From Leptolyngbya sp. NIES-2104 (GTDB taxonomy: Bacteria; Cyanobacteriota; Cyanobacteriia; Leptolyngbyales; Leptolyngbyaceae): a DNA stretch of 64,000 bases. The notes under the pieces are model-generated. The model was given only the letters and a program-made list of their open reading frames with translations. It did no database searches and had not been told where the DNA came from. A program made the position numbers and the translations under genes. The stretch spans positions 5,580,001 through 5,644,000 of the forward strand of contig NZ_BBWW01000001.1 in the NCBI RefSeq assembly GCF_001485215.1. Reading direction: 5' to 3'. Below, one piece after another: positions 7,104-9,957 of this stretch (positions are counted from its first letter, which is position 1; every line of letters starts with the position of its first letter).

Positions 7104-8012
7104 ATGATCACGGCTCCTACAGTTTCAACGGAATACAAGATCTGGATGTGGAAAGGGTTCCAAGTCGCTTATCAAGCGCAAGGAACCGAAGGGATTCCCG
7201 TTGTTCTCGTGCATGGCTTCGGAGCTTCGTTTTTCCACTGGCGCAAAAACATTCCAGAACTGGCAAAAAATTGTCGGGTGTATGCAATCGACCTTATCGG
7301 CTTCGGTAAATCCGCTAAACCGAAACCCGTTGAGCAAATCGAATACACCTTTGAAACTTGGGGCGATCAGATTGCGGATTTCTGCCGTGAAGTGATCGGA
7401 GAGCCAGCAGTCTTGATCGGAAATTCGATTGGTTGTATTGCAGTGATGCAGGCAGCGGTCGATCATCCTGAAATTGCGCGATCGCTGGCTTTATTAAATT
7501 GCTCATTGAGACTATTGCACGATCGACATCGCGCCACACAGCCTTGGATTAAACGCATCGGTGCGCCGATTTTACAAAAAGTCCTGCAAAATCAAGCGTT
7601 TGGACAATGGTTTTTCAGTCAGATTGCTAAACCAAAAGCGGTTAGAAACATTCTGCTTAAAGCGTATGTAAACTCCGAAGCGGTCACAGATGAATTAGTA
7701 GAACTGCTACTCGGTGCAGCTTCAGATCAAGGGGCGACAGCCGTATTTATTGCATTTACTGGGTATTCTTCTGGACCTTTACCTGAAGATCTGTTGCCGA
7801 AACTGCCTTGTTGCGCGATCGTGCTTTGGGGCGAAAAAGATCCTTGGGAACCGATCGCGCTCGGTCGAAAATTTGCAGACTATCCGCAAGTCAAAGAATT
7901 CATTCCACTCCCGAACGTCGGGCACTGTCCCCAAGATGAAGCCCCCGAACTCGTCAACCCGATTCTGCAACGATGGATCGAGCAAACAGCAACCGAATCA
8001 AAAAATAGCTAA
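7104..8012 (+). CDS. alpha/beta hydrolase downstream of chlD
   Basis: A 302-residue serine hydrolase of the alpha/beta fold. The oxyanion-hole motif HGFGAS begins at residue 37, the nucleophile elbow GNSIGC places the catalytic serine at 108, the acid is probably the Asp in WGEKDPWEP, and the histidine is in NVGHCPQDE. The substrate is not defined by sequence. Its position right after chlD in the same direction, and its general likeness to plastid hydrolases of the pheophytinase/dephytylase type, make a chlorophyll-turnover role conceivable, but that is inference. Haloperoxidase-like or lipid esterase functions are alternatives. The translation start at 7104 lacks a strong ribosome-binding site. 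Confidence 0.85.
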   Translation: MITAPTVSTEYKIWMWKGFQVAYQAQGTEGIPVVLVHGFGASFFHWRKNIPELAKNCRVYAIDLIGFGKSAKPKPVEQIEYTFETWGDQIADFCREVIGEPAVLIGNSIGCIAVMQAAVDHPEIARSLALLNCSLRLLHDRHRATQPWIKRIGAPILQKVLQNQAFGQWFFSQIAKPKAVRNILLKAYVNSEAVTDELVELLLGAASDQGATAVFIAFTGYSSGPLPEDLLPKLPCCAIVLWGEKDPWEPIALGRKFADYPQVKEFIPLPNVGHCPQDEAPELVNPILQRWIEQTATESKNS

Positions 8013-8123
8013 ACAAATCTGCCAATCTGGCAACACCGTCAAAGTGAGTTCTCCTACAGTAATGACATCAGCCAAAGCGGTTGATTTCTCGAAAACATCA
8101 TCAGAACTACAGGAGAGTTTCAC

Positions 8124-8348
8124 ATGATTATCACTGACTTAAACTACATCGAAGTCGTTTCCGAAGAAACCAGCATCAGTGGTGGTGGCAAGAAATACGG
8201 ATTCGCAATTGCATACGCAGATGCGGACGCAACTGCGATTGGTCAAAAATTCGCGGCAACCTACACCGACACTAATACAATCGCTCTCTCTGGCAAGGGT
8301 GTTGCTGCTGCTTACTCAGGCTCCACATCCGGCAGTGTCGCGTACTAA
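8124..8348 (+). CDS. double-glycine leader peptide precursor 1
   Basis: A 74-residue precursor-like peptide. The leader MIITDLNYIEVVSEETSISG ends in Gly20-Gly21 with Ile at position -4, as in leaders cut by peptidase-containing ABC exporters. The predicted 53-residue core is rich in Ala, Gly, Ser, Thr and Tyr (KKYGFAIAYADADATAIGQK is its opening) and has no cysteine, so it is not a disulfide or lanthionine peptide. AGGAGA at 8111-8116 is a good ribosome-binding site 7 nt before the ATG. The same N-terminal motif recurs in the next two genes. The exporter itself is not in the window. The family name is not certain to me; small secreted bacteriocin-like or signalling peptides are the likely class. 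Confidence 0.8.
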   Translation: MIITDLNYIEVVSEETSISGGGKKYGFAIAYADADATAIGQKFAATYTDTNTIALSGKGVAAAYSGSTSGSVAY

Positions 8349-8365
8349 CGCTGAAAGAAGTTTGT

Positions 8366-8408
8366 GATTTAACTTCTTGAGTTGTGACACGACTTTAGAA
8401 GTTAAATC
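8366..8408 (+). terminator. 12-bp inverted repeat after peptide gene 1
   Basis: GATTTAACTTCT (8366-8377) and AGAAGTTAAATC (8397-8408) are perfect inverted copies with a 19-nt loop, and the loop can itself form a 5-bp inner hairpin (8381-8385 with 8389-8393). A 6-bp hairpin, GCTTCA/TGAAGC at 8409-8425, follows. There is no T-run directly after the stem, so RNA processing, stabilisation or attenuation of the peptide transcript is as likely as termination. Confidence 0.5.
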
Positions 8409-8438
8409 GCTTCATTGCTTGAAGCAATTCATCGTTAT

Positions 8439-8476
8439 AAATCGCTGACAGTTCGAGTGGGACTTTTCAGCGATTT
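8439..8476 (+). terminator. hairpin with T-rich tail between peptide genes 1 and 2
   Basis: AAATCGCTGA (8439-8448) pairs perfectly with TCAGCGATTT (8467-8476) across an 18-nt loop, and the stem runs into CTTTG. This is the best candidate for a partial rho-independent terminator that would lower expression of the downstream peptide genes relative to peptide 1. Confidence 0.5.
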
Positions 8477-8517
8477 CTTTGTCCAAAAGTGTACTGTTAG
8501 GGTCAAAGGAGAAGCGA

Positions 8518-8700
8518 GTGATTATTTCTGATCTTGATCATCTGAACGCAGAGACAAGACCGATTTCGGGAGGAGTGTTTGCATTCGGATTCGCCAACGG
8601 CAGCGCGGAGGCGGTTGGCAACAAACTGAGCGTAGCGACGACAGTAAGTTTGACTTCAACTTATACGGTCGTGTTTGCTGCGCCGCGTGTTTATCACTAA
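8518..8700 (+). CDS. double-glycine leader peptide precursor 2 (GTG start)
   Basis: A 60-residue precursor-like peptide starting at GTG 8518. The start is decided by AAGGAG at 8506-8511, 6 nt upstream, and by alignment with peptide 1: MIISDLDHLNAETRPISGG against MIITDLNYIEVV...SISGG. A longer TTG start at 8479 would place the motif internally and is not favoured. After Gly18-Gly19 the 41-residue core begins VFAFGFANGSAEAVGNK and keeps the G-F-A, A-G-x-K and alternating Thr pattern of peptide 1, so the cores are also related. No cysteine is present in the core. Gene caller programs may miss this gene or extend it. Confidence 0.75.
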   Translation: MIISDLDHLNAETRPISGGVFAFGFANGSAEAVGNKLSVATTVSLTSTYTVVFAAPRVYH

Positions 8701-8741
8701 ATTTAGGTGGTTTTCTCACAATTTTGTAGGAGACATGAATC

Positions 8742-9014
8742 ATGAGGACAGTTGAAATTTCGGATCTGAGTTTTTGTGAGCAGTATCACTCCGATCGAGT
8801 GCAGGGCGGCAGACTTTCGGTTCACATTCCGCCCGTTAAGGTTGTGGCGGATACAGCTACCGCTTATGCAGTCGAGGTCGCAGGCGTGGTGACTCCGGCA
8901 GGTGCGGCAGGTGCTTCAGCGGGTGCGGCGGCAGGTGCGGCGGCAGGTGGAGCTTCAGTTGGTGGAACCCCAGTTCTATCTGTACGGGCAACGGCGTTTG
9001 TCGGTGTAGTTTGA
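8742..9014 (+). CDS. double-glycine leader peptide precursor 3, Ala/Gly-rich core
   Basis: A 90-residue precursor-like peptide. The leader MRTVEISDLSFCEQYHSDRV runs to Gly22-Gly23 with Val at -4 and carries the same I-S-D-L motif as peptides 1 and 2. The 67-residue core has a low-complexity Ala/Gly tract (AGASAGAAAGAAAGG, about residues 56-70) between two hydrophobic segments. The start ATG at 8742 follows AGGAGA at 8728-8733 by 8 nt; an ATG at 8735 is in another frame and stops at once. The core differs from those of peptides 1 and 2, so the three products could form a multi-component set. Confidence 0.72.
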   Translation: MRTVEISDLSFCEQYHSDRVQGGRLSVHIPPVKVVADTATAYAVEVAGVVTPAGAAGASAGAAAGAAAGGASVGGTPVLSVRATAFVGVV

Positions 9015-9048
9015 AGTCGTCCATCTGATGGATGATGAGCGATCGAGC

Positions 9049-9072
9049 TGCTCTCAGAGGAATCTGAGAGCA
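9049..9072 (+). terminator. 10-bp hairpin with GGAA loop before the foldase gene
   Basis: TGCTCTCAGA (9049-9058) and TCTGAGAGCA (9063-9072) form a perfect stem closed by a GGAA tetraloop, followed by CTTGCTCTTT. It lies between peptide 3 and the foldase gene, so it may end most peptide transcripts or protect their 3' ends, while some read-through reaches the foldase gene. Confidence 0.6.
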
Positions 9073-9126
9073 CTTGCTCTTTGATGTTACTGCGGTGAGA
9101 GATAGTCTGTTCGATGGAATTTCACG

Positions 9127-9864
9127 ATGCAGCTACTTCCAATGTCTGAAGATGCCACTATTACTCCAGATGATTTTGTTATTCAGTTGAAGAAGAACTT
9201 ACAGTTCAGGTCTGTGTTCGAGCAGATTTTGTTTCAGCAAATTGTCGATCGCGTTGCAGAAGATCGATCTCTAACAATCACTCCGGATGAAATTCAAGCA
9301 GAAGCGGATCAGTTTCGAGCGACACGGCGACTCGAACGAGCAGCAGATACCTATCGCTGGCTCGAAGAAGAAAGAATCACCGCTGAAGAATGGGAAACTG
9401 GAATTCGCGATCGACTGCTCACCAATAAAGTGAAGGAAGCGCTATTTGGTGCAGAGGTCGAACGAATTTTTACCGAAAACCGCGTCAATTTTGACCAAGC
9501 GGTGATTTATCAAACTGTGGTTCCTTACGGGCAATTGGCACAGGAACTGTTTTATCAAATCGAAGAGCGAGAGATTAGCTTTTTCGAGGCGGCACATTTG
9601 TATGATATTGATGCAAAACGTCGGCATCATTGTGGATTTGAAGGCAAGCTCTACCGCTGGAGTTTACATCCTGAAATGGCGGCAGTCGTCTTTGGAGCAA
9701 GTTCTGGGGAACTACTGCGCCCATTACAAATGGGAGAGCATCACCATTTGATTCTAGTGGAAGAGCTGATTATGGCTGAGTTATCCGACGAGATTCAATC
9801 GGAGATTCTTGATCAGTTGTTCCAGGAATGGCTGAGAGATGAGTTGAAAGACGTAATTTCTTAA
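9127..9864 (+). CDS. PpiC/SurA-like peptidylprolyl isomerase (foldase)
   Basis: A 245-residue parvulin-type foldase. Residues 10-100 form a helical SurA-like chaperone region (FEQILFQQIVDRVAEDRSLT, EWETGIRDRLLTNKV) and residues about 105-200 a divergent PpiC rotamase domain (LAQELFYQIEEREISFFEAA, AAVVFGASSGELLRPLQMGE). There is no signal peptide or membrane anchor, so it should act in the cytosol on substrates before export. In cyanobacteria such foldases are, as I recall, often encoded beside peptidase-containing ABC exporters and HlyD-type adaptors. Here one follows three double-glycine peptide genes, which supports a role in handling those precursors. An alternative start is the ATG at 9142. 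Confidence 0.82.
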   Translation: MQLLPMSEDATITPDDFVIQLKKNLQFRSVFEQILFQQIVDRVAEDRSLTITPDEIQAEADQFRATRRLERAADTYRWLEEERITAEEWETGIRDRLLTNKVKEALFGAEVERIFTENRVNFDQAVIYQTVVPYGQLAQELFYQIEEREISFFEAAHLYDIDAKRRHHCGFEGKLYRWSLHPEMAAVVFGASSGELLRPLQMGEHHHLILVEELIMAELSDEIQSEILDQLFQEWLRDELKDVIS

Positions 9865-9957
9865 TGATCTTTTAATAACAGTTGTATCGGCTTGTAAGAG
9901 ATGCGCGTAAACTGAATTAGATTTTGTATCGTAAAGGAATCTAACTCACCAGTGTTT

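Follow-up and report, generated by a model that had tools for sequence, protein, structure and literature searches.

We analysed a stretch of 64,000 nucleotides (the window) from the genome of the cyanobacterium Leptolyngbya sp. NIES-2104 (contig NZ_BBWW01000001.1, positions 5,580,001 to 5,644,000 of the forward strand), whose open reading frames include three small genes with an I-[S/T]-D-L ... [I/V]-x-G-G leader upstream of a gene encoding a PpiC/SurA-like foldase. Judged by its genes and their relatives, this block is an instance of the cyanobacterial C39-exporter ('bacteriocin') cluster, of the kind assigned to groups I/II by Wang and coworkers in 2011, split from its exporter. An initial annotation of the window had described the three reading frames, their coordinates, the leader motif and the [I/V]-x-G-G ends as we find them in the sequence, and its proposal of double-glycine-type export peptides with an associated foldase, as in cyanobacterial bacteriocin-like clusters, is supported by the relatives reported below. 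The block contains four genes:

8124-8348, + strand: peptide 1 (p1) precursor, 74 residues; leader MIITDLNYIEVVSEETSISGG; core beginning GKKYG, with an A-x-A-x-A-x-G ... T-x-T motif
8518-8700, + strand: peptide 2 (p2) precursor, 60 residues; GTG start, the same in the relative G001; leader VIISDLDHLNAETRPISGG; core beginning VFAFG
8742-9014, + strand: peptide 3 (p3) precursor, 90 residues; leader MRTVEISDLSFCEQYHSDRVQGG; core beginning RLSVH, with an Ala/Gly tract containing GxxxGxxxG
9127-9864, + strand: PpiC/SurA-like foldase, 245 residues; signal peptide not evident; Gln in place of the first parvulin histidine

Leader peptides

All four reading frames are intact, and a purine-rich, ribosome-site-like stretch can be read in the sequence ahead of each of the three peptide starts. 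The leaders end in ISGG at residue 21 in p1, ISGG at residue 19 in p2 (counted from the GTG) and VQGG at residue 23 in p3, the p3 leader being of a longer sub-type. The [I/V]-x-G-G end of the canonical double-glycine leader, M(R/K)ELX3E(I/L)X2(I/V)XG(G/A), is present in all of them; the upstream part of that consensus is not matched, the window leaders reading, by eye, I-[ST]-D-L-x-[YHF], and the consensus of this leader type is MIISDLxYxE...GG. Further details of the initial annotation held on inspection: p2 reads from a GTG start (which is kept in G001, a relative of the same genus), p3 has its Ala/Gly tract, the foldase shows by eye no hydrophobic segment at its N-terminus that would suggest a signal peptide, and the cores of p1, p2 and p3 are free of cysteine. 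None of the three peptides matched a family in Pfam or NCBIfam (limit E 10). A lanthipeptide reading was judged unlikely, with no Cys in the window cores and Cys in 4 of 57 cores of our first set; LanM genes lay outside the search.

A leader profile was trained on 54 leaders from 21 of 23 loci in other genomes, with no window sequence included; because these leaders had been chosen with a pattern containing I-x-D-L, the profile is biased towards that element. Among 1791 N-termini of the window it recovered p1 (E=2.1e-9), p2 (4.6e-6) and p3 (0.021, by itself a weak match), the next other candidate reaching 0.64; a second, TTG start of p2 also matched. Once the alignment included these three, a leader search of the whole 6.39-Mb genome returned only p1, p2 and p3, with the next candidate at E=4.05. 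The shared leader of the three peptides is confirmed as real and above chance.

Leader, foldase and exporter in related genomes

Our first sample comprised 58 genomes, the window's included, in 7 of which (again including the window's) p1 as query found matches. Searching these genomes with the foldase gave a list of 24 places with identities from about 46% upwards; leader-type peptides are present at 21 of the 23 such loci in other genomes, L068 and L069 having none. Sixteen further loci were fetched, one for the C39 exporter of the window's genome and 15 for more distant foldases, four of them from that same genome. In the leader search none of these 15 yielded such a leader, and several show instead longer leaders with L-S-[DE]-x-E-L ... 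GG. With leaders at the close foldase loci and at 0/15 of the distant ones, one foldase clade goes with one leader type.

The initial annotation had proposed looking in cyanobacterial genomes for this leader beside C39-peptidase ATP-binding cassette (ABC) exporters and HlyD adaptors. An ABC gene and an HlyD gene of this type are both present at 14 of the 24 close loci; at L049, L051 and L059 the ABC gene is seen only partly, at the edge, and 10 loci, the window's among them, lack the pair in the stretch fetched, some of them lying at contig ends. A wider sample, drawn from a named genome collection, consisted of the best 80 of 112 foldase relatives, 12 of which repeat known loci, leaving 68 independent ones; here a close ABC relative denotes more than 45% identity. 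A leader peptide was found at 51 of these 68 loci, a close ABC at 40 and an HlyD relative at 35, the corresponding counts for the 39 loci longer than 20 kb being 30, 26 and 24. When genes were clustered over 90 loci (22 of the first set, including the window's, and the 68 independent ones), 56 were found to have HlyD, 55 a C39-ABC and 54 a gene of the HetP family. The conservation of leader and cleavage site that the annotation expected of homologs was borne out: in the comparison with G001 leaders are kept better than cores, and of 211 peptides scored by our own rule 176 have GG at the site and 35 have GA, 2 of 213 having been left out of site and core counts as having neither.

Other families recur around these loci. 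Some HlyD adaptors (L132:6745-8349 and L179:3-1460) have an N-terminal stretch ending in GG, as if they bore leaders themselves. A 283-residue protein (L102:11345-12193, minus strand), in which a signal peptide is apparent by eye and which weakly resembles PEP-CTERM families, represents a family in 40 of the 90 loci, a 293-residue protein with RTX calcium-binding repeats (HemolysinCabind; L141:9003-9881) a family in 13, and a 106-residue protein with a TLALGEEGG stretch (L059:5602-5919) a family in 7. A graspetide-type ATP-grasp protein (L121:11377-12279, TIGR04187-like, below cut-off) represents a family in 14 of the 90, and the exporter class may serve graspetides too.

Exporter locus and rearrangement junction

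In G001, the closest relative (same genus; its contig matches Phormidium tanganyikae FI6-MK23), a single locus holds, in this order, the ABC gene, the HlyD gene, a HetP-family gene, p1, p2, p3 and the foldase. Orthologs of the ABC and HlyD genes, 85.6% and 85.1% identical to the G001 pair, lie in the window genome (G000) at C1:152312-157071, the ABC gene occupying C1:152312-155437, within an ABC-HlyD-HetP site (C1:152312-157503) whose upstream neighbour is the same as in G001 and at which the leader search found no such peptide. The exporter (L085:6017-9139) comprises cNMP_binding (score 38.7), Peptidase_C39 (143.8), ABC_membrane and ABC_tran domains, the C39 domain being complete; the adaptor (L085:9418-10773) matches HlyD_3 at 74 bits, and a TolC-family (OEP) gene is present in the genome. 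C1 measures 5,695,116 bases, and the distance from peptide block to exporter is about 258 kb if it is circular and 5.4 Mb otherwise. Since exporter and HlyD are encoded at another site, the system would most likely work in trans, the exporter at C1:152312-157071 being the one assigned to it.

The block and its surroundings carry the following further features:

7985-8011, no strand: left junction; the sequence leftward is found at a different place in six same-genus genomes
8011-8123, + strand: conserved upstream region, probable promoter or 5' untranslated region of the peptide operon, matching the region upstream of G001 p1
8349-8517, + strand: p1-p2 intergenic stem-loops, arms 8366-8386/8388-8408 and 8439-8448/8467-8476
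9049-9072, + strand: perfect stem-loop of 10 bp in the p3-foldase gap, matched by a counterpart in G001
9841-9870, no strand: right junction; the sequence rightward is found at yet another place in those six genomes

The left flank, up to about 7990, and the right flank, from about 9850, match separate places in all six same-genus genomes tested, so that the peptide-foldase block stands at a rearrangement junction. In G002 and G004 the two matches are far apart on one contig; in the drafts G001, G005, G006 and G007 they fall on different contigs, which makes non-adjacency less firm there. The left flank is itself split in G002 and G005.

Conservation and non-coding elements

The four genes of the block have counterparts in G001 in the same order. 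Leaders are the better conserved part in this sequence comparison, with identities of 14/20 (p1), 13/19 (p2) and 12/21 (p3), against 22/48, 18/38 and 23/63 for the respective cores; the G001 p1 leader ends in GA, not GG. The nonsynonymous and synonymous divergences (dN and dS) from G001 are 0.448 and 1.192 for p1, 0.506 and 1.827 for p3, and 0.135 and 1.256 for the foldase, dS of p2 being saturated. The sequence of window 8011-8168, a 160-bp stretch, has a 77% match ahead of p1 in G001; a promoter search found no consensus sigma-70 site on the + strand. Hairpins also occur in the p1-p2 gap of G001, the second sharing the TCAGCGATTTCT arm. The stem-loop at 9049-9072 was tried as a terminator, but three such sites against 2.0 in shuffles is not significant by itself; it is taken as meaningful because of its counterpart in G001 and is a possible attenuator or RNA-processing site. 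The stem-loops may set peptide-to-foldase ratios.

Foldase

The foldase meets PF00639, the SurA-like rotamase domain, at exactly its cut-off (21.7 bits); with TIGR04500 it scores 57.8 bits, where the cut-off is 180, and aligns only over profile positions 115-329 of 340. Its AlphaFold2 model is confident (mean predicted local distance difference test, pLDDT, 93.1; predicted template modelling score, pTM, 0.75), and the best solved structural matches are the PrsA and SurA chaperones, single isomerase domains fitting better. The first active-site histidine of parvulins is needed for isomerase activity. In a profile alignment the H of the PrsA 'SHILV' motif aligns with Gln in the window foldase, and all 24 aligned foldases, the window's included, have Gln or Arg in this column. 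The foldase is thus probably devoid of isomerase activity, and because the histidine is replaced we read it as a chaperone and not an enzyme, probably a non-catalytic protein of the SurA/PrsA-like kind.

The window genome holds six foldase matches. At four of them (L081-L084) a PpiC-type gene stands beside an ABC exporter gene, with HlyD in three of the four, and the leader search found no such leader peptide nearby; the substrates there may be large proteins. A link of every genomic PpiC to such leaders is ruled out by these loci.

Core peptides

The 57 cores of the first set are rich in Ser (14.3%), Ala (13.1%), Gly (10.2%) and Thr (9.2%), with 0.1% Cys, and Ala recurs in them at a spacing of two residues (mean z 1.61 over peptides, pooled z 12.1). 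A core motif chosen by eye on this set, A-x-[AS]-x-A-x-G-x(3-6)-x-[ST]-x-T-x-T, is found in 21 of 211 cores, where 100 shuffled sets gave 0.03 on average and at most 1, and, among the 154 cores unseen when it was chosen, in 8 from 7 loci (shuffles: mean 0.026, maximum 1 of 500); a broader pattern matches 31 of 211 against 2.24 in shuffles. In the window the motif is present in p1, p2 and p3 not being listed with it. The Ala/Ser/Thr/Gly-rich cores are probably beta-prone.

By our own rule, p3-like cores with an Ala/Gly tract occur at 7 loci, one of which (L138) looks different, and GxxxGxxxG is counted twice in p3 (shuffle P 0.02) and three times in its G001 counterpart (P 0.0075). Cores of the p1 and p3 types share a locus in four cases, the window and its G001 counterpart included, a co-occurrence at most suggestive of three products acting together. 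Several similar peptide copies are found at L056, L058 and L160. Those at L056 appear curlin-like by eye; as no curlin is among the 9 Pfam families listed for 42 peptides, curli-like repeats are not claimed. Five of the 42 peptides of set A2 match the CTB family bacteriocin model NF038167 at E<=1 (best 3.1e-8; one is shown at 25.4 bits, cut-off 32), and p1, p2 and p3 do not match it. A tblastn search with p1 as its only query, p2 and p3 lying outside it, found no plasmid relatives.

HetP-family proteins with the leader element

The HetP-family gene beside the exporter (L085:10798-11208, G000:C1:157093-157503) scores 117.1 bits with NF037966 (cut-off 45) and is the only such match in the window genome; its product has a leader-like element and GG in the C-terminal tail. 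By pattern, the element followed by GG or GA occurs in 41 of 59 HetP-family proteins. After nine had been dropped for a short or undefined tail, the leader profile, built from N-terminal leaders, scored at least 8 bits in 31 of 50 tails, against 0.02 per shuffled set and none in the HetP-domain parts. Of 41 HetP tails, 30 have R, K or H just before GG/GA, compared with 3 of 54 peptide leaders, where a few registers are off by one; this basic residue would set HetP tails apart from exported peptides.

Six other genomes reached through the loci (Nostoc, Calothrix and Chlorogloeopsis, which we take to be heterocyst-formers) contain 15 HetP-family matches. In seven of them the element comes with GG, and a relative of the ABC, HlyD or foldase lies no more than about 1.5 kb from each; L176 carries the element but lacks GG. 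The remaining seven have no element, and L186 is the sole one among them with an ABC relative at such a distance; there HetP stands beside the ABC gene with no HlyD or foldase that near, and we infer that L186 is the true hetC-hetP pair.

The pairing of a C39-ABC exporter carrying a cNMP domain with a nearby HetP-family gene is common to the HetC/HetP system as described in the accessible text of PMC10986499, which reports no membrane fusion protein gene near hetC, unlike the exporter of the window genome, and states the substrate of HetC as unknown. The HetP motif KIXDLXYLEX10GG, which resembles the leader element of the window, was reported as a putative cleavage motif in 2011 (PMC3140520) and again in 2015 (PMC4558948); in the available portions of this literature, supplements aside, we found stated neither the position of the element behind the HetP domain nor its likeness to the N-terminal leader of separate peptides. 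Tentatively, the HetP proteins encoded beside these exporters might serve the C39 exporter as clients or decoys, its C39 domain docking on or cutting the tail and so coupling export to regulation, with HetC/HetP a derived pair.

Discussion

We consider it likely that the block consists of three small precursor peptides and a dedicated cytosolic chaperone, the peptides being exported in trans by the C39-ABC exporter. Its short leader (M-I-I-S-D-L-x-Y-x-E ... GG) would steer each precursor to one C39-peptidase ABC exporter (cNMP-binding, C39 and ABC domains), which would cut after GG and release the core through HlyD and a TolC-type channel, while the foldase would hold the precursors or present them to the exporter. 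Cleavage, export and the chaperone role are steps that we infer. Outside the cell the cores might be peptides of the surface or matrix, like EbfG in Synechococcus elongatus; this step, favoured because of that analogy, is the weakest of the explanation and one we put forward with reserve.

Comparison with described systems places the block in a known class. The accessible text of Wang, Fewer and Sivonen (PMC3140520) gives for groups I/II a long-type C39-ABC with an N-terminal nucleotide-binding (CAP_ED) domain, HlyD, a SurA-like rotamase protein, GG precursors and HetP-family genes, all also found here; unlike those clusters, the window peptides and foldase are unlinked from the exporter, and neither Pfam nor NCBIfam has a match for the peptides. 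The cyanobacterial case studied by experiment, EbfG/PteB of S. elongatus PCC 7942, is, as far as the available text of PMC4997328 and PMC9981879 goes, a biofilm-matrix system: PteB, a C39 protein, assists the secretion of GG-motif peptides that are needed for biofilm, and EbfG1-3 form amyloid. The likeness, drawn by description, lies in several small GG-motif peptides (EbfG1-4) in one operon and their C39-dependent secretion; the accessible part of PMC4997328 contains no occurrence of SurA, PpiC, isomerase or HlyD, and the table in PMC3140520 lists one group I and one group III cluster for PCC 7942. TIGR04500/MirC, in the portion of PMC13097080 available, shares the SurA-like C-terminal domain and is encoded with a C39-type exporter (peptidase-containing ABC transporter) and a leader-bearing precursor, unlike which the window foldase falls below the family cut-off, has no N-terminal domain of that kind and is accompanied by no graspetide synthetase.

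Several observations weigh against the export explanation or parts of it. By the threshold used, leader peptides are absent from 17 of the 68 independent loci and, among the 39 that exceed 20 kb, from 9; a further 7 of the 39 have leaders but no close ABC. The exporter is unlinked to the peptides, so that exporter and precursors are clustered in G001 but not in the window genome, which has five other C39-domain matches, one of them (C1:3347732), a possible alternative exporter, near an HlyD 39% identical to the assigned adaptor. Full-length template modelling scores of the foldase to solved chaperones are about 0.35-0.5. As to the cores, the alternation statistic pools related sequences, p2 fails the strict motif, the glycine-zipper pattern of p3 equally fits a membrane-active peptide, and the p1 model has low confidence (mean pLDDT 72, pTM 0.44) and shows no more than a C-terminal hairpin, so that their beta structure rests mainly on the sequence pattern.

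Among the alternatives, the cores may be unmodified antibacterial peptides, that is, class-II-like microcins or bacteriocins with p3 as a glycine-zipper membrane peptide and p1 and p2 as its partners. Such a role, which we regard as doubtful, is possible because of the glycine zippers that p3-type cores combine with an Ala/Gly tract and because of the bacteriocin label of this class in the accessible text of PMC3140520, although we use 'bacteriocin' here as a class label only; the faster divergence of cores than of leaders, as weapons may show, and the NF038167 matches of 5 of the 42 set-A2 peptides point the same way. Against it, no further plausible immunity gene was seen between peptides and foldase (no family search was made for one, and it could lie elsewhere), the window peptides belong to no Pfam or NCBIfam family, L056, L058 and L160 hold several similar copies, and alternating cores rich in Ser, Ala, Thr and Gly are in our judgement unusual for membrane-active peptides. 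It is unlikely that the peptides are secreted to act as signals or regulators in connection with the HetP-family protein encoded next to the exporter. In favour of this, a HetP-family gene adjoins the exporter in the window genome and occurs in 54 of the 90 loci, many HetP tails share the leader element, and HetC, a related C39 exporter whose substrate is given as unknown in the accessible part of PMC10986499, is needed for heterocyst differentiation, but the cores seem to us long and low in complexity for signals. Decay of the displaced block into a remnant that has lost expression or export, which its position apart from the exporter at a rearrangement junction might suggest, is very improbable given four intact frames, an intact exporter with complete C39 domain, a dN that stays well under dS in p1, p3 and the foldase, and the G001 counterparts of the upstream region and stem-loops. 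Enzymatic modification of the cores (for example to graspetides), with the foldase as partner of a modifying enzyme like MirC (TIGR04500) in rosaritide, is the least probable: the foldase matches TIGR04500, 14 of the 90 loci hold the ATP-grasp family, and MirC and its ATP-grasp enzyme are both required (PMC13097080, available text), but the score is far below cut-off, the three cores have no Cys, no modifying enzyme was noticed beside the block, and the best TIGR04187 match of the genome, where other modifying enzymes lay outside the search, is 21 bits, on which account the graspetide reading was judged unlikely.

Conclusions

The block proves genuine and conserved, a peptide-export block of a kind known from cyanobacteria, unusual in being split from its exporter and with core families that bear no label. 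Through the export explanation, unlabelled tiny genes become an assignable export system with a named distant exporter, one that gene-cluster mining demanding linkage would miss. We describe core families for which Pfam and NCBIfam give no match, together with a chaperone clade paired with one leader type. If HetC/HetP did derive from a peptide-export module, this would offer a concrete lead on the substrate of HetC, and if the element in HetP tails is functional, it would connect peptide export with cyanobacterial cell differentiation in a way that is open to testing.

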